In this document: piece after piece, positions 5,504 to 13,236 of the stretch | Position numbering within the stretch: position 1 is the stretch's first letter | How the letters are laid out: each line of letters begins with the position of its first letter | NCBI RefSeq assembly: GCF_020179405.1 | Contig: NZ_JAICBZ010000001.1 | Location: 124,001-188,000 of the forward strand | Direction: 5' to 3' | From: Xinfangfangia pollutisoli | Lineage (GTDB): Bacteria > Pseudomonadota > Alphaproteobacteria > Rhodobacterales > Rhodobacteraceae | Length of the DNA: 64,000 nucleotides | Position numbers and translations under genes: made by a program | Notes under the pieces: model-generated | Databases searched by the model: none | The model's input: only the letters and a program-made list of their open reading frames with translations | What the model was told of the DNA's origin: nothing

Positions 5504-6139
5504 CTAATCGCCCACAATCGGCAGATCCAGCGCGGGGTCTGTCGCGGGCCTCAGCAAACCCGCATCTTCCAGCGCCTCGAAGTCGGGCAAGTCGCGCAGC
5601 GTTTCCAGCCCGAACTGCACCAGAAACCCCGGCGTGGTGACATAGGTGTAGGGCGCGCCCGGCTCGGGGCTGCGCGGGCCGCGGGCGATCAGGGCCTGAC
5701 GGTGCAGGCGCGCGATCAGATCGCGGCTGACCTCGCGGCCCGTCAGGCGCGCGATCGCGCCACGGGTCACCGGCTGCATATAGGCGATGATGGTCAGCAC
5801 AAGGGCTTCGTTCCGGGTCAGATCGCGCATGGCATCGCCGTCCTTCCGCGCGGTGCGGATCGCGGCGGCATGCTCTGGCCTGGTCCGGAACTGCCAACCG
5901 CCCGCAAGGCGCGCGATCTCGTAGGGACGACTCGCAAGTTCGGCAGAAATATCCTCGATCAGCAGATCAAGCGCACAATCCCGGCCGACCACACGGGCCA
6001 GGACGTCGCGCCCGACCGGATCGGAGGACGCAAACAGCACTGCCTCGACCCGCGCCATCCATTCGCGCCAGCGCAGGGCCGGCGGCAGATCGGCCAGTTC
6101 GGTGTCCAGCGGTTCGGATGATTTCTGTGCCATCGTCAA
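5504..6139 (-). CDS. scpB: ScpB-like kleisin-associated protein, replicon-borne paralogue
   Basis: The 211-residue protein resembles ScpB of the SMC-ScpA-ScpB condensin: two winged-helix domains, the first around residues 28-105 (VEAVLFASSDPVGRDVLARVV and GGWQFRTRPEHA), the second around 110-185 (LTRNEALVLTIIAYMQPVTRGAIARLTGREVSRDLIARL, then YTYVTTPGFLVQFGLETLRDLP). Length and motifs agree with the family. No scpA or smc lies nearby; instead it follows a DUF1403 gene with a 4-bp overlap and sits beside a tyrosine recombinase and parAB, which suggests a role in maintenance or unlinking of this replicon rather than of the main chromosome. That role is inference. Confidence 0.85.
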   Translation of the reverse strand: MTMAQKSSEPLDTELADLPPALRWREWMARVEAVLFASSDPVGRDVLARVVGRDCALDLLIEDISAELASRPYEIARLAGGWQFRTRPEHAAAIRTARKDGDAMRDLTRNEALVLTIIAYMQPVTRGAIARLTGREVSRDLIARLHRQALIARGPRSPEPGAPYTYVTTPGFLVQFGLETLRDLPDFEALEDAGLLRPATDPALDLPIVGD

Positions 6140-7053
6140 AGCCCGTAAAGCCGGAAGGTCGGCCGTCCGGTCAACTCGCGCACCAGGCCCAGTGAGGTCA
6201 GCCGCTCAAACAGCCGCCGCGCCGCACGGTCGCTGGTCGCGGCCCCCGCCTGGGCCGCCAGCGCATCCTCGGTCAAAACTGCGGCAAGGGTGGCGGCCGC
6301 GTCCTTTCCCGGCCGTCGCAGATGTGCCGCGCGCAAGGCATTGGCCCGGCGGGTCAGATCGGCGTGAAGATCTACCGCTGCGACGGCCCCCCTGCCCCAG
6401 GCCCGCGCGCAGGCCGCAAGCCATGCCTCGCCCTCCAGCCGGAATTCTGCCCGCGGCAGATGGGCCGCAAGCAGCGGGACCGGTCGCTCCCAGCCAAGCG
6501 CCCGGGCCAACAGCGCATCCGCCAACCAAAGCGCCAAACCGCGACCGGCCGGACCAAGGGCAAGACCCTCGCGCCCGGCTTCAGCAGCAAAGCGCAGCGG
6601 CGGCGTACGGCCAGCAAGGCGCGCGCCGAGGTCGTGCAGGATCTTGGCGCTTGGCCCGGGCGGCAAATCGAAGAAGCCGGGCAGACGTGCGGGCCAATCT
6701 GCCGAACGCAGCGCCCGCGCCTCTCCCAGCGCACGCCAGCCGATCAGCATCCGCCCCGCGGGGCCGGGATCGTCGCCGGGTCTGCGCAGGGCGAAGGCAT
6801 CGCGGAGTTCGGCTTCGCCTTCACGGCGCCCTTCCTGCCGGGAAACGGCCGCTGCGGCCGAAAGCGCCAGCCGCTTGCGCCAAAGGATGCCGACCGGGTC
6901 GTCGGACCGCGCAATCGGATCCAGCACAGCAAGGGCTGCCCCGGCAGAAAACATCGCGGTTTCAACATCATCACGACCGACGCCCTGCCGAACCCAGCGC
7001 GGCATAGCCGAAGGAGTTAAGGAAGGCAAAGAGGATTTCGGGGCAGAGACCAT
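6136..7053 (-). CDS. DUF1403 family protein
   Basis: The 305-residue protein fits DUF1403, an uncharacterised alphaproteobacterial family. Recognisable parts are the VETAMFSAGAALAVLD opening helix, WRKRLALSAAAAVSRQEGRREGEAELRDA and RRPGDDPGPAGR, then an Ala/Leu/Arg-rich helical body; the last 60 residues (LTEDALAAQAG..SDRAARRLFERLTSLGLVRELTGRPTFRLYGL) look like a small winged helix. It has no membrane segment or catalytic motif that I can name. It is coupled to scpB by ATGA (6136-6139) and divergent from a tyrosine recombinase 115 bp away. The combination suggests a DNA-acting partner of ScpB or of the recombinase. Confidence 0.8.
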   Translation of the reverse strand: MVSAPKSSLPSLTPSAMPRWVRQGVGRDDVETAMFSAGAALAVLDPIARSDDPVGILWRKRLALSAAAAVSRQEGRREGEAELRDAFALRRPGDDPGPAGRMLIGWRALGEARALRSADWPARLPGFFDLPPGPSAKILHDLGARLAGRTPPLRFAAEAGREGLALGPAGRGLALWLADALLARALGWERPVPLLAAHLPRAEFRLEGEAWLAACARAWGRGAVAAVDLHADLTRRANALRAAHLRRPGKDAAATLAAVLTEDALAAQAGAATSDRAARRLFERLTSLGLVRELTGRPTFRLYGL

Positions 7054-7129: not shown

Positions 7130-7158
7130 ATGTCCAATAAGTTTGCATTATCAGACAT
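7130..7158. promoter_or_regulatory. dif-like recombination site 1 (candidate)
   Basis: Left arm ATGTCCAATAA (7130-7140) and right arm TTATCAGACAT (7148-7158) are inverted copies matching at 9 of 11 positions and enclose a 7-bp spacer, GTTTGCA. Arms ending ATAA and starting TTAT around a short asymmetric core are the layout of Xer dif sites (which usually have 6 bp). It lies between the divergent DUF1403 and recombinase genes, 9 bp before the recombinase ATG, so it could also be that gene's operator. Confidence 0.6.
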
Positions 7159-7167
7159 ACAGGAAGT

Positions 7168-8277
7168 ATGCTCAAAGGCATGACCGAAACGCACCGGAAA
7201 TCGCCTTCAGGGCAGCCAGAGGACGTGGATCCCCATGAACGGGACGAGAGCGGGGCATCCGAAGATGCGGCCCTCGCCCTGCCTTCCCACGTTGCCAGCT
7301 CCGGAGCGCTTGACCGGCTGGTGGAAACCGCGCGGGGCTATGCCAGGGCTGCGGCCTCCGAGAATACGCTGAAGGCCTATGGAAAGGACTGGGCCCATTT
7401 CGCCCGCTGGTGCCGGATGCGCGGGACCGATCCCCTGCCCGCGTCTCCGCAACTGATCGGCCTCTACATCGCCGATCTGGCGGCGCCGGGAGGAAAGACC
7501 CCTGCCCTTTCGGTGTCGTCCATCGAACGCCGCCTCTCGGGCCTTGCCTGGGGCTACACGCAGCGCGGGGAACGCCTTGACCGCAAGGACCGCCACATCG
7601 GTAGCGTCCTGGCCGGGATCCGTCGCAAGCACGCCCGTCCGCCCGCACAGAAAGAGGCGATCCTGCCCGAAGACCTGCGCGACATGCTGGCCACCCTGCC
7701 CCACGACCTGCGCGGCCTTCGCGACCGGGCGATCCTGCTGATCGGCTTTGCCGGTGGCCTAAGGCGGTCCGAGATTGTCTCTCTTGACCACGGCAAGGAC
7801 GACACGCCCGATAGCGGCGGCTGGATCGAGATACTGGAGGATGGCATTCTGGTTACCCTGCGCGGGAAGACCGGCTGGCGCGAGGTCGAGATCGCCCGCG
7901 GGTCATCGGAACAGACCTGCCCGGTGCATGCCCTGACGCAGTGGCTGCATTATGCAAGGATCGACTTCGGCCCTCTCTTCGTCGCGGTATCCCGCAACGG
8001 GCTGAAGGCCACCGCGGAGCGGTTGTCGGACAAGCATGTCGCCCGGCTGATCAAGACCTGCGCCCGCGAGGCCGGGCTACGCCCTGATCTGCCGGAGGCC
8101 GAGCGCGTGCGGCTGTTCTCTGGCCATTCTCTGCGTGCAGGCCTTGCCAGCAGCGCGGAAGTTGATGAGCGCTATGTTCAAAAGCAGCTCGGTCATGCCA
8201 GCGCAGAGATGACCCGCCGATATCAGCGGCGCCGCGACAGGTTCCGGGTGAACCTGACCAAAGCCGCAGGCCTGTAA
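7168..8277 (+). CDS. Tyrosine site-specific recombinase 1
   Basis: The 369-residue protein has a charged leader (1-45), a SAM-like core-binding domain (about 50-155, with SENTLKAYGKDWAHFARWC) and a complete tyrosine-recombinase catalytic domain: Arg in GGLRRSEI (about 195), Lys in RGKTGW, HSLRAGLA with His and Arg (about 318-325), LGHAS and the nucleophile Tyr in TRRYQRRRDRF (about 353). The start could be the ATG at 7168 or at 7180; both have purine-rich leaders that are too close to be decisive. A dif-like site directly precedes it and it is divergent from DUF1403-scpB. The likely task is resolving multimers of this replicon, although a past integration function cannot be excluded. Confidence 0.9.
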   Translation: MLKGMTETHRKSPSGQPEDVDPHERDESGASEDAALALPSHVASSGALDRLVETARGYARAAASENTLKAYGKDWAHFARWCRMRGTDPLPASPQLIGLYIADLAAPGGKTPALSVSSIERRLSGLAWGYTQRGERLDRKDRHIGSVLAGIRRKHARPPAQKEAILPEDLRDMLATLPHDLRGLRDRAILLIGFAGGLRRSEIVSLDHGKDDTPDSGGWIEILEDGILVTLRGKTGWREVEIARGSSEQTCPVHALTQWLHYARIDFGPLFVAVSRNGLKATAERLSDKHVARLIKTCAREAGLRPDLPEAERVRLFSGHSLRAGLASSAEVDERYVQKQLGHASAEMTRRYQRRRDRFRVNLTKAAGL

Positions 8278-8406
8278 GCCCCCTGCCCGTCCGACACGCC
8301 TTTGCTGAATGCCAAGCTGCAACCTGACCGCTCAGGTTTCAGCTAACCGCTTCAATTGAAATCGGGAAACAAACGCACACTGGCAAGTTCCACCGGCGGC
8401 ACCATT

Positions 8407-8435
8407 AGTCACGATAATTTTGCCTTATCAGGACT
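8407..8435. promoter_or_regulatory. dif-like recombination site 2 (candidate)
   Basis: Left arm AGTCACGATAA (8407-8417) and right arm TTATCAGGACT (8425-8435) match as an inverted repeat at 9 of 11 positions around the 7-bp spacer TTTTGCC. It has the same geometry as the site at 7130-7158 and shares TTTGC in the spacer and TTATCAG at the start of the right arm. It lies in the 266-bp gap between the two recombinase genes, 108 bp before the second. The only other thing I see in that gap is the 10-bp palindrome TTCAATTGAA at 8351-8360. Confidence 0.6.
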
Positions 8436-8543: not shown

Positions 8544-9584
8544 ATGAGCCTGCCGATCCTGCCCGCCTTCGCCCAGCTGTCCGAGGCCGACGAGGCCGCG
8601 CTGACCGATCTGTACCGCCGCGGCACGCCCCCCAACACGCTGCGCGCCTGGGAGCGCGACCTGGCCTATATCGCCGCCTGGAAGATGGCCGCCTTCGGCC
8701 GCCCGCTGGCCTGGCCCGAAGAAGACCGCGTCGCCCTGCGCTTCGTGCTGGACCATGCCCAGGACCTGACCGATCGGCCCGGCCCGGCGCAGGACTGCGC
8801 CCGGGGCCTGATCGCCCTTGGCCTGCGGCTGAGCCTGGCCTGCCCGGCCCCGGCCACGCTGGACCGCCGCATCGCCAGCTGGCAGGCCTTCCACCGGATG
8901 CGCGGCCTTGCCTCTCCCTTCGCGGCACCGCTGGTGCAACAGGCCCGCCAGAAGGCCCGCCGGGCCAATGCCGCACCGCGCCGGCCCAGATCGCCGCGCC
9001 CGATCACCCGCCCGGTGCTGGAGGCGCTGCTGGCCAGCTGCGATGACAGCCACCGCGGCCTGCGCGACCGCGCGCTGTTGATGCTGGCCTTCGCCAGTGG
9101 CGGCCGCCGCCGGTCCGAGGTGACGGCGCTGTCGGTCGACGACATCGGCCGCGGCGATTTCGCGGCCCGCGGGCTGCTGTGGGTCCGCCTGCTGGAGACC
9201 AAGACCACCCGCAAGGATCAGGCCCCGCGCCTGCCGCTGAAGGGCCGCGCCGCCCAGGCGCTGATGCAATGGCTTGACGTCACGGGCCTGCGCGAAGGGC
9301 CGCTGTTCCGGCCGGTGTCAAAGGCCGACCGGGTGCTGGACCGCCGGCTTGCCCCCGATGCGCTGCGCCCGATCCTGCGCCACCGTCTGGCGCTGGCCGG
9401 CCTGCCGGAAGATTACGCCACCCCGCATGGGCTGCGCGCGGGCTTTCTGACCCAGGCGGCGCTGGATGGCGCGCCCCTGGCCGCCGCGATGAAATTAAGC
9501 CTGCACCGATCAGCGGTGCAGGCCCAGAAATATTACGCCGATGTCGAGTTCAGCGAGAATCCCGCCGCCGATCTGCTGGGCTGA
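8544..9584 (+). CDS. Tyrosine site-specific recombinase 2
   Basis: The 346-residue product is a second phage-integrase-type recombinase, distinct from its neighbour. The N-terminal core-binding half (about 15-150) contains PPNTLRAWERDLAYIAAWK; the catalytic half has Arg in GGRRRSEV (about 190), Lys in ETKTTRKD, HGLRAGF (about 293-299), a His in LSLHRSA and the Tyr in AQKYYADVEF (about 330). All active-site positions are kept. It ends 21 bp before the convergent parB stop, with a parS-like palindrome between. Its location beside parAB and a dif-like site fits dimer resolution of the replicon. Confidence 0.9.
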   Translation: MSLPILPAFAQLSEADEAALTDLYRRGTPPNTLRAWERDLAYIAAWKMAAFGRPLAWPEEDRVALRFVLDHAQDLTDRPGPAQDCARGLIALGLRLSLACPAPATLDRRIASWQAFHRMRGLASPFAAPLVQQARQKARRANAAPRRPRSPRPITRPVLEALLASCDDSHRGLRDRALLMLAFASGGRRRSEVTALSVDDIGRGDFAARGLLWVRLLETKTTRKDQAPRLPLKGRAAQALMQWLDVTGLREGPLFRPVSKADRVLDRRLAPDALRPILRHRLALAGLPEDYATPHGLRAGFLTQAALDGAPLAAAMKLSLHRSAVQAQKYYADVEFSENPAADLLG

Positions 9585-9605: not shown

Positions 9606-10718
9606 TCAATCGTCCAGCTGATCCAGCATCAGCCGCACCGCCTGTTCCAGCCGCCGCCGGTCGATGGTGGTGAAATCGCGGTCGATCTGGATTTCCAGCT
9701 TGCCCACCGCCGCCACGCACTTCGCCCGGCCCGTGCGACGGTCGAACTGAAAGCTGGTCTTGGCGCGGCCCGGACGCGGCGCCGCGGACTGCGATGGCGC
9801 GGCGGCGGCGACCGGCGCCTCCTCGTCGTCGCCCTGCCCCAGCATCCGCCGCAACAGCGCCAGTTCGTCCTGGACCGAGCGGTTGTCATGCCGCTTCAGC
9901 TCGGCCCGCAGCGCTGGCGCGAAACCTTCGTCTTCCTCCAGCCGCTTGGCCAGCGCCAGGCCCAGGCGGCGGGGGATTTCCTCGATATAGGCCAGGTCGC
10001 GGCCCAGGCGCTGCACCAGCGGCAGGAAGGCGCGGATATAGCTGCGCTTCTGGTAGCCGGCCGAGCGGAACAGGATCGCCACCGCCTTGTCGGGATCATT
10101 GTTGCCCACGATCGGATCGGCGGCGTAATCGGCGGCCAGCTGCGCCATTTCGGCAAAGGAAATGTCCTTGCGGACCAGGTTCTCGTCGACCATCCGGCGA
10201 TACAGCGCATCCAGCCCCTCGCCCGGCGGGCTGACGGCGGCCGGGATGGCGCCGTAGCGTTCGGCATCGCCGGTCTCTTCCAGCAGCGCCCGATAGGCCG
10301 ACAGCCGGCGATAACCCTGCACCAGTTCGAACCGGCCATCGGCCCGCGCTTCCACCCGGATCGGGTTCGACAGGCCCAGATCGCGGATCGAATCGGTCAG
10401 CTCTTTCAGCTCGAAATCCGGGCCCTTCTTGCGGTCGCGCACCAGCTTTTTCATGTCGATCAGGTCCAGCGCCACCGGCTCCAGCACCAGACCCAGCCGC
10501 TTCAGGCGCATGTGTTCATGCGCCAGCGCGTCATTTTCGGCACGGATCGCCGCCTCGATCCCGGCGCGTTCGCGCACCGTATCGACGGTTTCCGCGATGG
10601 CCGAGGCCATGGGCCCGCGGCGGGCGGGCGGATCTGTGGGCTTCCCCGCGGGGAAGGTCTGCTCGGGCGCGGCATCCTCGGGCAGGTCGATGTCGAACAT
10701 CCGGCGCTTCTTGCTCAT
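9606..10718 (-). CDS. parB: ParB-family plasmid partition protein
   Basis: The 370-residue protein has the ParB layout: an N-terminal tail with basic residues, a ParB/Srx-like domain (about 95-190, containing LGLSNPIRVEARADGRFELVQGYRRLSAYRAL, in which GYRR is the conserved box that binds nucleotide, and VDENLVRKDISFAEMA), an HTH-containing middle (about 195-290) and a C-terminal dimerisation segment. ATG 10718 is chosen for AAAGGGG eight bases before it and its fit with MSKKRRMFDIDLPEDA; an upstream ATG at 10790 would run into parA. It begins 13 bp after parA. Residues TFPAGK near the N-terminus are encoded by one of the parS-like palindromes. Confidence 0.92.
   Translation of the reverse strand: MSKKRRMFDIDLPEDAAPEQTFPAGKPTDPPARRGPMASAIAETVDTVRERAGIEAAIRAENDALAHEHMRLKRLGLVLEPVALDLIDMKKLVRDRKKGPDFELKELTDSIRDLGLSNPIRVEARADGRFELVQGYRRLSAYRALLEETGDAERYGAIPAAVSPPGEGLDALYRRMVDENLVRKDISFAEMAQLAADYAADPIVGNNDPDKAVAILFRSAGYQKRSYIRAFLPLVQRLGRDLAYIEEIPRRLGLALAKRLEEDEGFAPALRAELKRHDNRSVQDELALLRRMLGQGDDEEAPVAAAAPSQSAAPRPGRAKTSFQFDRRTGRAKCVAAVGKLEIQIDRDFTTIDRRRLEQAVRLMLDQLDD
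10641..10656. promoter_or_regulatory. parS-like palindrome 2, inside parB
   Basis: CTTCCCCGCGGGGAAG, an exact perfect palindrome within the parB coding sequence; on the parB strand it encodes part of TFPAGK. Being identical to the copies outside genes, it is probably maintained as a binding site. Confidence 0.65.
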
Positions 10719-10731
10719 GGCGCGGCCCCTT

Positions 10732-12027
10732 TCAGATCTTGTCCCAGGCCGCGACGGTGCTGGCCTTGAATTCCTCATAGGCGCGATCAAAGCTGGCCCG
10801 CGCCCGCCGCCAGGTTTCCCGCGTCATCTCCCGATAGTCGATCTCATAGACCGAGGCGAGGAAGCGGCCCGATTGTTCGACCGCGCGGGTCATCTCGATC
10901 GGGTGTTCGGCCACATGATCGCCAAAGACCTTGCGGAAGGCTTCGAACATCGCGCGATGCAGGTCATTGCCCGGCTCGTAGCGGGTCATCAGGAAGCGGA
11001 TATCGGTAAAGGCCTTGGGCAGGGCGATCTTCCCCGCGGGGAAGGTTGACCCGAAGCCCGACAGGTCGGCCAGCGCCTCGGCCAGCTGGCCGATGAAGGA
11101 GGTGGTCGAATCGTATTCCCAATAGCCGGGGCCTGAGGGGATATAGAGCATGTCTGCCGCGAAGACCGCGTTCATCGACTGGTAGCCGATGGCGGGCGGG
11201 CAATCGAACAGGATCAGGTCGTAATCGTCATCGGCCAGCCCGTCGAGATAGCGCGACACGGCGGCGAAGAAGGACCATTCCGGGTTCAGGTGCCGGTACT
11301 GGGCGCTGGCGAATTCGACGAAGGCCGCGTTGGCGCAGGAGGGGATGATGTCGATCGTCGACCAGGCGGTGGGCTTGATGAAGTCGGCATGGCGCAGCTC
11401 GCCCAGGCCCAGGTCGCGGATCGAGGCCGGGATCTGCCGGCGGGGCAGGGCGGTGCCCGAGGCGGCGCCGGTCGCGGTGCCGGCGTTCATCCGGTCGGTC
11501 TCGCGGATCAGGTCGCGGGCCATGATGCCCCAGACCGTATAATCCTCGGCCACATCGGTCAGGCCCATGGAATGCGACAGCGTGGCCTGGGGGTCGAAGT
11601 CGACGACAAGGATGCGGTAGCCGTCCAGCGCGGCCGCATGCGCGAGGTGCAGCGCCACGGTCGACTTGCCGGCGCCGCCCTTGAAGTTGGCGACGGCGGC
11701 GCGGAAGGCGCGCTTGCCGGCGGGGCGGGGGGGCATCAGCGACTTGCGGTTGATCTTCATCTTGCGCCGCAGCTCGTTGATCTCGTCCAGCGTGAACCAG
11801 CGCTGGCGGCCATCGGGTTCGACCTCGCCGCCCGGAAGGTCGGGCTCGGAGGCCAGCCGGCCGCGGAAGGTGGACTGGTTGATCCGGAAGATCAGCTCGG
11901 ACACTTCCCAGGACGAGAAGCGGCGGAGCGTCTTGCGGTTCTCGGGGCTGAAGGTCTGCTGGCGGATCCAGTTCTGCATCTTCAGCGACTGGGCCTGCAT
12001 ACGGGCCAGGTCTTCATGCGTGTACAT
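10732..12027 (-). CDS. parA: ParA-family partition ATPase (type Ia)
   Basis: The 431-residue product is a Walker-type partition ATPase. An N-terminal extension of about 105 residues includes a MerR-like helix-turn-helix (TLRRFSSWEVSELIFRINQSTFRGRL), the hallmark of type Ia ParA proteins that also repress their own operon. The ATPase part shows the deviant Walker A FKGGAGKST (about 115-123), Walker A' VVDFDPQATLS (about 141-151) and Walker B DLILFDCPP (about 255-263). It moves ParB-parS complexes over the nucleoid. The start at 12027 has GAGG ahead of it, and an inverted repeat (12048-12071) lies just upstream. A parS-like palindrome inside the gene encodes TFPAGK. Confidence 0.94.
   Translation of the reverse strand: MYTHEDLARMQAQSLKMQNWIRQQTFSPENRKTLRRFSSWEVSELIFRINQSTFRGRLASEPDLPGGEVEPDGRQRWFTLDEINELRRKMKINRKSLMPPRPAGKRAFRAAVANFKGGAGKSTVALHLAHAAALDGYRILVVDFDPQATLSHSMGLTDVAEDYTVWGIMARDLIRETDRMNAGTATGAASGTALPRRQIPASIRDLGLGELRHADFIKPTAWSTIDIIPSCANAAFVEFASAQYRHLNPEWSFFAAVSRYLDGLADDDYDLILFDCPPAIGYQSMNAVFAADMLYIPSGPGYWEYDSTTSFIGQLAEALADLSGFGSTFPAGKIALPKAFTDIRFLMTRYEPGNDLHRAMFEAFRKVFGDHVAEHPIEMTRAVEQSGRFLASVYEIDYREMTRETWRRARASFDRAYEEFKASTVAAWDKI
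11029..11044. promoter_or_regulatory. parS-like palindrome 3, inside parA
   Basis: CTTCCCCGCGGGGAAG, exact copy, within parA and encoding part of GSTFPAGK in its C-terminal third. It is 388 bp from copy 2 and 1124 bp from copy 4. Confidence 0.65.
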
Positions 12028-12371: not shown

Positions 12372-12540
12372 TTGGGGCAGGGGTCGGCAGATCTGCAGGT
12401 CGATCTTGACAGAATCGAAACGGCGGACGTTAATGGCGGACAAGCAAACAAGAACGTTGAGTTCGGCTCCGCAGCGCCCCCTGCGAATGGTCGGACCAGA
12501 GGCAGGCCGGTCCCCCCGGCAGAGGCGACAGGAGAACCCC

Positions 12541-13236
12541 ATGCAGCTTCCCCGGCCCGTCGGCCGCGAGGCGGCGTCCCGGAAGTATGATATCCTTTCG
12601 GCGCTGATGGCCTTTGCCCTGGCCCAGGACAAGCATGTGCAGCGGCTGGTCCTGCGGATCATGGCGCTGATCACCAGCCGCTACAACTGGCAGCGCGACG
12701 AGCTGTCGGTCGGCCAGGCCGAGATCGCCCGGCTGTGGTCGGTCGACGAACGCACGGTCAAGCGCGAGATGGCGCGGCTGCGGGCGCAGGGCTGGCTGGT
12801 GCAGAAACGCCAGGGCGCCCGCGGACGGGTCAGCGTCTATGGGCTGGATCTGGAGCGGATGCTGGAAGACACCCGCCCCGCCTGGCCGCGGATCGGGCCG
12901 GATTTCGTGGCGCGGCTGGGCGGGCAGGCCGAGACCGAGCCCGCCGCCTCGGCCGCCTCGAATGTGGTGCCTCTGCGCGCGGTGGCAGCCCCGCAGCCGG
13001 TGGCCGATGGCTCGACCTGGGCCGAGGCGCAGGCCCGGCTTCTGGCGCAGGATGCGGCCAGCTATGGCGCCTGGTTCCATCCGCTGACCGAGGCGGGGCT
13101 GGAGGACGGCCGGATCACCCTGGCCGCGCCGACGCGGTTTCACGCCTCATATGTGATGACGCATCTGCAGCCGCGGCTGCTGGCGGCGCTGCGGGCGGCC
13201 GATCCGTCGATCGCGGCGGTGCAGGTGATCGCGTAG
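12541..13236 (+). CDS. DnaA-like plasmid replication initiator
   Basis: The 231-residue protein has an N-terminal winged-helix region (about 40-105, with VGQAEIARLWSVDERTVKREMARLRAQGWLVQKRQGARGRVSVYGLDLERML), a low-complexity linker, and a C-terminal 75 residues resembling domain I of DnaA (STWAEAQARLLAQDAASYGAWFHPLTEAGLEDGRITLAAP then THLQPRL). This arrangement is known from the DnaA-like replicases of Rhodobacterales plasmids, which lack the AAA+ domain. ATG 12541 has AGGAGA seven bases upstream; an in-frame ATG at 12433 would add 36 polar residues. It is divergent from parA, with the putative origin between. Confidence 0.85.
   Translation: MQLPRPVGREAASRKYDILSALMAFALAQDKHVQRLVLRIMALITSRYNWQRDELSVGQAEIARLWSVDERTVKREMARLRAQGWLVQKRQGARGRVSVYGLDLERMLEDTRPAWPRIGPDFVARLGGQAETEPAASAASNVVPLRAVAAPQPVADGSTWAEAQARLLAQDAASYGAWFHPLTEAGLEDGRITLAAPTRFHASYVMTHLQPRLLAALRAADPSIAAVQVIA

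Follow-up and report, generated by a model that had tools for sequence, protein, structure and literature searches.

The window, the 64-kb stretch of DNA analysed here, probably carries two independent plasmid resolution modules side by side, each with a single tyrosine recombinase, and the sites of the first of these families have probably recombined between plasmids. Site 1 stands ahead of recombinase 1 (family 1) and site 2 ahead of recombinase 2 (family 2), see Table 1.

Table 1. Features of the recombinase region, in coordinates of the window.
Feature	Position	Strand	Sequence	Evidence
Site 1, family-1 recombination site (putative)	7130..7158	+	ATGTCCAATAA-GTTTGCA-TTATCAGACAT	sequence, matrix, conservation in relatives
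Site 2, family-2 recombination site (putative)	8407..8435	+	AGTCACGATAA-TTTTGCC-TTATCAGGACT	sequence, matrix, conservation in relatives
Recombinase 1 (P0001, 369 aa), tyrosine recombinase, family 1	7168..8277	+		PF00589 (Phage_integrase) 3e-15
Recombinase 2 (P0002, 346 aa), tyrosine recombinase, family 2	8544..9584	+		PF00589 (Phage_integrase) 7.9e-14
DUF1403 protein, divergent from recombinase 1	6136..7053	-		PF07183 2.4e-58
ScpB-like protein (condensin subunit family)	5504..6139	-		PF04079 1.4e-33
Inverted repeat behind recombinase 1, 13-nt arms, 4-nt loop	8315..8344	.		terminator-like (predicted)
ParB/RepB-like partition protein	9606..10709	-		TIGR03454 29.7 bits, ParB_N 23.7 bits, both below cut-off
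ParA/RepA-like partition ATPase	10732..12027	-		AAA_31 2.2e-25; TIGR03453 1e-60, below cut-off
DnaA-like replication initiator candidate	12505..13236	+		DnaA_N 4.7e-08; stretch scanned, start codon not fixed

Two sites and two recombinase families in the window

Re-read from the sequence, both sites are as the preliminary description gave them, with 11-bp arms paired at 9 of 11 positions, a 7-bp centre and a right arm that begins TTATCAG. They are directly oriented and their starts are 1277 bp apart. The motif ATAA-N7-TTAT occurs twice in the 64-kb window, compared with a mean of 0.01 in 100 shuffled versions, none of which reached two. Across the 4.4-Mb genome it is found at four places, against three for the reversed pattern, i.e. 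at background level. Since two of these four stand ahead of recombinase genes, it is this placement of the motif, ahead of the two recombinase genes, that is non-random.

No recombinase gene was seen beside the other two genomic matches (C90 and C177) in the stretches read. The match in C90 (L004, around 7945-7962), a third ATAA-N7-TTATCAG that is dif-like and has a 7-bp centre, was set aside as a coincidence; it stands ahead of a katG-like gene, with a LysR-like regulator on its other side and no recombinase, and is perhaps part of an operator. The match in C177 falls inside a galE-like coding sequence and was discarded as a recombination site. The katG-like, galE-like and LysR-like names were given by eye from the translations.

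Each site precedes an intact tyrosine recombinase gene, as first noted. Both reading frames are open, both proteins match the Phage_integrase family of Pfam, and both contain the R-K-H-R-H-Y motif, which we take to be the catalytic residues of tyrosine recombinases (R199, K234, H320, R323, H343 and Y352 in P0001; R189, K220, H295, R298, H321 and Y330 in P0002, picked by motif string only). In the alignment to P0001, R-K-H-R-H is kept in 66/66 rows and the tyrosine in 65/66, with some rows being duplicates. The idea that the neighbouring recombinases form one system did not hold up. P0001 and P0002 are 34% identical over 170 residues, and members of the two families are apart from each other in most loci compared. 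By sequence they look like two families, each with its own site sequence, and not like a working pair of one system.

The site matrices separate the two sites in the same way. The family-1 matrix gives 55.2 bits for site 1 and less than 14 bits for site 2, and the family-2 matrix 41.7 bits for site 2 and 16.5 bits for site 1; the window's own site helped to build the matrix in each case. The spacers, GTTTGCA and TTTTGCC, differ at 2 of 7 positions, and the outer arms differ too. Because the spacers differ and each site matches its own family, the two modules should act independently.

This also bears on the switch that had been proposed earlier, in which an exchange between site 1 and site 2 would release recombinase 1 on a 1.28-kb circle. 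The direct orientation, together with the ATAA/TTATCAG and TTTGC common to both sites, would allow such an exchange, but the differences in spacer, outer arms and matrix score speak against it. The six other side-by-side loci (L037, L048, L051, L065, L149, L157) showed no ATAA-type palindrome with a 7-bp centre between their genes, the window being the only one of the seven with both sites, and the excised form was not seen in any locus compared. We consider the switch extremely unlikely.

In two of the side-by-side loci (L048:2768-4918 and L051:2789-4930), the recombinase-2 match directly behind recombinase 1 begins only at residue 41 or 37, and a search for site 2 found none; displacement of family-2 modules by family-1 modules may be the reason. 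An element similar to the terminator-like repeat of Table 1 is also present behind recombinase 1 in L037 and L065.

The ScpB and DUF1403 genes lie on one side of the modules, and ParB-, ParA- and DnaA-like genes follow downstream of recombinase 2, the last of which presumably encodes a DnaA-like replicase. From this gene content, the region is probably the replication-partition (maintenance) region of an extrachromosomal replicon.

Conservation of the sites in relatives

Family-1 loci were taken from 295 genomes of the host's taxonomic family (70 loci, L079-L148), with a few more from the loci of the family-2 scan. In the family-1 arrangement the site lies between a divergent ScpB-DUF1403 pair and the recombinase, often near replication genes. 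DUF1403 is present in 54 and ScpB in 51 of 74 loci, some of which are incomplete. A TATGTCCAATAAGTTTGCATTATCGGACATA-like site scoring at least 36 bits was found in 53 of 73 upstream regions (best shuffle -10.2), a count that is partly circular, as the matrix was built from sites in the same 73 regions, among which are the window (L079) and a locus that occurs two times (as L037 and as L109). No site at this threshold was found in the other 20 upstream regions searched, of which three (L107, L118, L129) carry a site 0.7 to 1.4 kb upstream.

The pattern scan is independent of this circularity. Allowing at most two mismatches, the family-1 pattern occurs at 72 places in 53 of the 295 genomes, and the reversed control at none. 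Among the gene matches listed, 51 of the 72 places lie within 400 bp upstream of a family-1 gene in the same orientation, 50 of the 53 genomes also have a family-1 gene, and eight genomes have such a gene and no pattern match. The pattern thus tracks the recombinase genes, which is the question that the preliminary description had raised. The reversed sequence of 129 loci contains no family-1 match.

Exactly one family-1 site is present on 70 of the 71 site-bearing contigs, which are not always whole replicons. Were the site the attachment site of an integrative element, with the recombinase as its integrase, a pair of sites would be expected to bound the element, and a single site provides no such flanking pair. 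The genes are indeed annotated as integrases, and toxin-antitoxin and transposition genes are found nearby in several records, but the neighbourhood of gene and site includes several kinds of replication and partition genes. We regard an integrative element as quite unlikely.

Contig G135:C12 has two sites and was examined as a caught cointegrate; this was rejected, since the two copies belong to a 7.2-kb repeat of 100% identity, such as the overlapping ends of a circular contig would give. Identical family-1 sites are found on plasmids of one strain (L089 and L110, i.e. pDSHI01 and pDSHI03) and on several contigs of one genome (G229, G171, G151, G138). Identical sites in one cell are expected to fuse plasmids, so some control must keep them apart.

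In a tblastn search of 72,556 plasmid records at E 1e-20, matches were found in 908 records for family 1 and in 668 for family 2. The relatives examined individually are all on plasmid records and were chosen as such. Ti, Ri and other rhizobial plasmids also carry the family-1 arrangement. A palindrome with a 7-bp centre lies upstream in seven of eight family-1 relatives from Hyphomicrobiales plasmids (L157-L163), and none was found upstream in the eighth (L169). It begins 48 bp ahead of the recombinase gene in the Ti plasmid pTiFPH-AT4 and 51 bp ahead in the Ri plasmid pRiNCPPB1855, and in six of the seven palindrome-bearing loci ScpB with DUF1403 is annotated adjoining. The search of these and of the distant family-2 relatives allowed centres of 5 to 9 bp, and every match listed has 7 bp; its filter demanded paired inner bases ending TAA, TAG or TAT and is biased to the ATAA-type motif. 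A ScpB-DUF1403-recombinase module with 70.6% DNA identity to a Ti plasmid is also present in CP070277.1, a plasmid labelled Dysgonomonadaceae bacterium, which is either a transfer or a mislabelled record.

The family-2 set consists of 59 loci from one scan of genome contigs with P0002. A site was found within 350 bp upstream in 16 of 57 regions and, when whole loci were searched, upstream on the gene's strand in 43 of 59, with 28 of the 43 not used for the matrix. The conservation of the arms upstream of orthologous genes, on which the preliminary description had staked its reading, is thus seen in both families. In these 28 loci that the matrix had not used, the site lies about 620-1150 bp from the gene (gaps 621 to 1154 bp), and three of these far-placed sites score only 19-20 bits. 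No site was found in 16 of the 59 loci, four or five of which hold little or no upstream sequence; the reversed sequence of 129 loci gave one family-2 match. Arm pairing reaches one base further inward in some family-2 sites. The family-2 pattern scan found matches in 3 of 295 genomes, which is no measure of rarity, as the pattern was too strict to recover even site 2 of the window itself.

Two Rhodobacterales records, L149 and L156, showed no family-2 site. Outside Rhodobacterales the family-2 matches are about 35-43% identical, among the matches listed. Ten distant relatives were searched for a palindrome with a 7-bp centre, which was present upstream in four (L153, L155, L166, L167) and not found in six (L152, L154, L164, L165, L168, L170), with a 9-bp centre instead in L154.

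In Tabrizicola piscis the gap between site and gene is annotated with a VapC/PIN toxin and a Phd/YefM antitoxin gene and, judging by gap size, a similar pair may fill most other long family-2 gaps. This bears on the possibility that the palindromes are operators only, through which the recombinase or its neighbours control their own promoter, with no recombination there. The distance from the first base of the ATAA to the gene start, as aligned to P0001, is 30-31 nt in many family-1 loci, which would suit an operator, but in 28 of 43 family-2 loci the site is at least 620 bp from the gene, with a toxin-antitoxin pair between in the records checked, and natural crossovers map into the family-1 site (see below). 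A role as operators only is quite unlikely.

Toxin-antitoxin pairs are repeatedly found ahead of the recombinase (L151:5200-6001, L149:5250-5983, L160, L164, L165, L169). In L151 and L160, where site and annotated pair were both located, the pair separates the site from the recombinase gene, and this is seen in both families. Among the distant family-2 recombinases the divergent neighbour is of another kind: in rhizobia it is a DUF1612/HTH_13 protein (L166:1554-2702 by domain scan; L153, L155 and L165 by annotation) and in Rhodanobacter a KfrA_N protein (L167:1935-2873). Annotated anti-phage genes (CBASS, SAVED, Qat) adjoin family-2 recombinases in L155:5125-9056, L167:4192-5142 and L153:807-2642.

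Natural crossovers at the family-1 site

Crossovers were searched for in family 1 only. Identities of DUF1403 and ScpB, on the same side of the site, correlate with a Spearman coefficient of 0.90, and each of them with the recombinase across the site with 0.67 (1891 pairs, a few loci occurring twice). Among 58 loci with the site and both flanks, oriented by gene strand, nine pairs have at least 95% identity on one flank; in all nine the other flank is at most 88% identical, and no pair is alike on both sides. The nine are not independent, six being among four loci (L112-L115) with a common right side.

With the split moved 900 nt rightwards as a control (57 loci), one pair was mosaic and six were alike on both sides. 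A split 1000 nt to the left (38 loci) gave none of either and is uninformative, as no pair reached 95%. At looser limits of 90/82%, the numbers of mosaic and alike pairs are 11 and 0 at the site, 3 and 1 at the left control, and 5 and 6 at the right control, and seven of the eight control mosaics involve a single locus, L132. BLAST end points often fall near the site; they possibly come from low similarity and were left uncounted.

The junctions of individual loci can be placed closely. To the left, L113 is identical to L104 for 1478 nt, as far as the compared sequence reaches, and differs from it from +13 of the spacer centre; rightwards it is identical to L115 for 4130 nt and differs from -15. 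Contig G161:C10 matches G229:C3 leftwards for 12,031 nt and G138:C19 rightwards for 11,822 nt, with one mismatch each, and the switch of partner is inside the site. The right block of this set contains the recombinase and three genes sized and ordered like repC-repB-repA, which were named by analogy. L112 departs from its right-hand sisters at the first spacer base, and L116 and L124 at a left-arm base.

A similar border is found in Dinoroseobacter shibae, where pDSHI01 and pDSHI03 have an identical stretch of 6,978 nt on the ScpB-DUF1403 side, divergence starts 15 nt right of the spacer centre, and the syntenic parts beyond are 88-91% alike. The available parts of the papers on these plasmids describe a plasmid duplication with recruitment of a new RepABC module (PMC5513947, PMC4886583), with neither a site nor a recombinase named in those parts; in the present comparison the family-1 site marks one border of the exchange.

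Could ordinary homologous recombination have ended by chance at this short conserved stretch between diverged flanks? The diverged flanks near the site are 69-86% alike (in 500-nt steps), enough for some exchange. However, its breakpoints would be expected to spread over kilobases, and all nine close pairs among the 58 loci switch at the site, while the right control split behaves differently. This explanation is unlikely. The footprints argue instead that family-1 sites have recombined between different plasmids in nature, and the crossovers were presumably made by the adjacent recombinase.

Known systems and a proposed mechanism

In dif the central region is 6 bp long and the two arms, which serve two recombinases, are unlike; the inner arms are ATAA/TTAT. 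The sites described here have a 7-bp centre and arms that are nearly alike in the family consensus. The likeness to Xer/dif with a longer centre, pointed out in the preliminary description, is thus borne out, each site being tied, by prediction, to its own recombinase. Neither protein reaches the cut-offs of the XerC model (53.3 bits for P0001 and 38.3 for P0002 vs 335) or the XerD model (48 and 32.3 vs 330); P0002 weakly matches the XerD structure 1a0p (6.3e-06).

A candidate chromosomal dif of the host is located at G000:C101:104708-104727 (L178), GCATAA-TCAGTA-TTATGTAA. Host XerC/XerD might themselves act on the plasmid sites, leaving the plasmid recombinases to do something else. The inner ATAA/TTAT is common to dif, and the XerC model finds matches in the genome on C119 and C3, with 310 and 258 bits, short of its cut-off, but the candidate dif has a 6-bp centre, and the sites track the plasmid recombinase families. 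An action of the host enzymes appears very unlikely.

The accessible part of a study of chromosomal XerC/XerD-dif systems, including the D. shibae dif, describes two different recombinases and a 28-bp site (PMC7901474). Inverted arms are common to those sites and ours, and there the arms are bound by tyrosine recombinases. XerS/difSL and XerH/difH, in the accessible part of PMC5357621, have one recombinase of about 355 aa, a site adjoining the gene and two inverted arms; they serve chromosomes, and the centre is 11 bp in difSL and 6-10 bp in difH. The site adjoins the recombinase gene in both families here, as in XerS and XerH. With the XerS model P0001 scores 25.9 bits vs a cut-off of 267, and P0002 has no match among those listed.

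In Cre/loxP of the phage-plasmid P1, a single recombinase encoded on the plasmid acts on a near-palindromic site, presumably to resolve dimers; the arms of loxP are 13 bp long and its centre 8 bp. The weak structural-sequence matches of P0001 include Cre (E about 1e-4). The features of a system of this kind are found here, i.e. a plasmid-borne location near replication and partition genes, usually one site per contig and complete active-site motifs.

In Sinorhizobium meliloti pSmeLPU88b, a XerD/Cre-like gene and toxin-antitoxin genes lie behind repABC, and the authors link the recombinase to dimers; the accessible part of their paper names no recombination site (PMC10194956). A family-2 relative on another S. 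meliloti plasmid has a similar neighbourhood. The same part of the paper states that in the P. zhejiangensis J6 plasmid (pZO2) and others such genes are not near repABC (PMC10194956). In P. zhejiangensis pPZ02 (L149, 4041-8984) both recombinase families and a VapC gene are within 4 kb of repA, apparently in conflict with that remark on a plasmid of the same strain, as far as the accessible part of the paper goes (PMC10194956). No paper on DUF1403, or on repABC with ScpB, was found in the open-access literature searched. Single tyrosine recombinases with an adjacent site are already known (XerS, XerH, Cre); what appears to be new here is the 7-bp centre, the ScpB-DUF1403 partner, the two families and the natural swaps of replication blocks at the site.

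In our proposal a module is made up of a single tyrosine recombinase and, upstream of the recombinase gene, a single near-palindromic site whose centre is 7 bp long. The two arms of a site are almost identical, so both are probably bound by one kind of recombinase, as in Cre/loxP or XerH/difH. Two sites would pair and exchange strands across the 7-bp centre, and the main job is probably the splitting of plasmid dimers into monomers. Between different plasmids the same exchange would yield a cointegrate, whose later separation elsewhere would leave a swapped replication block; in the family-1 footprints, the block with the recombinase and replication genes has been joined to another plasmid body. 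ScpB and DUF1403, across site 1, are, from gene order, candidate helpers or regulators. The accessible part of an earlier survey of plasmid tyrosine recombinases gives no further support for a resolution role (PMC3414803).

More tentatively, it is possible that ScpB, DUF1403, the single tyrosine recombinase and the intervening site form one widespread, undescribed resolution-segregation system of alphaproteobacterial plasmids (Roseobacter, Ti, Ri and rhizobial). ScpB-DUF1403 might then replace FtsK or accessory proteins in timing the recombination, and the site might be a hinge for changing the replication module and so the compatibility group.

Large alphaproteobacterial plasmids carry symbiosis, tumour, photosynthesis and conjugation genes. 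In D. shibae a new replication module was recruited by a mechanism that the accessible part of the paper leaves unnamed (PMC5513947). The present analysis yields a set of recombinase-site pairs, usually one per contig, and it bears on how these plasmids resolve dimers and how sister plasmids gain different replication modules. A defined 27-bp site, its recombinase and natural recombinant junctions inside the site make both questions directly testable.
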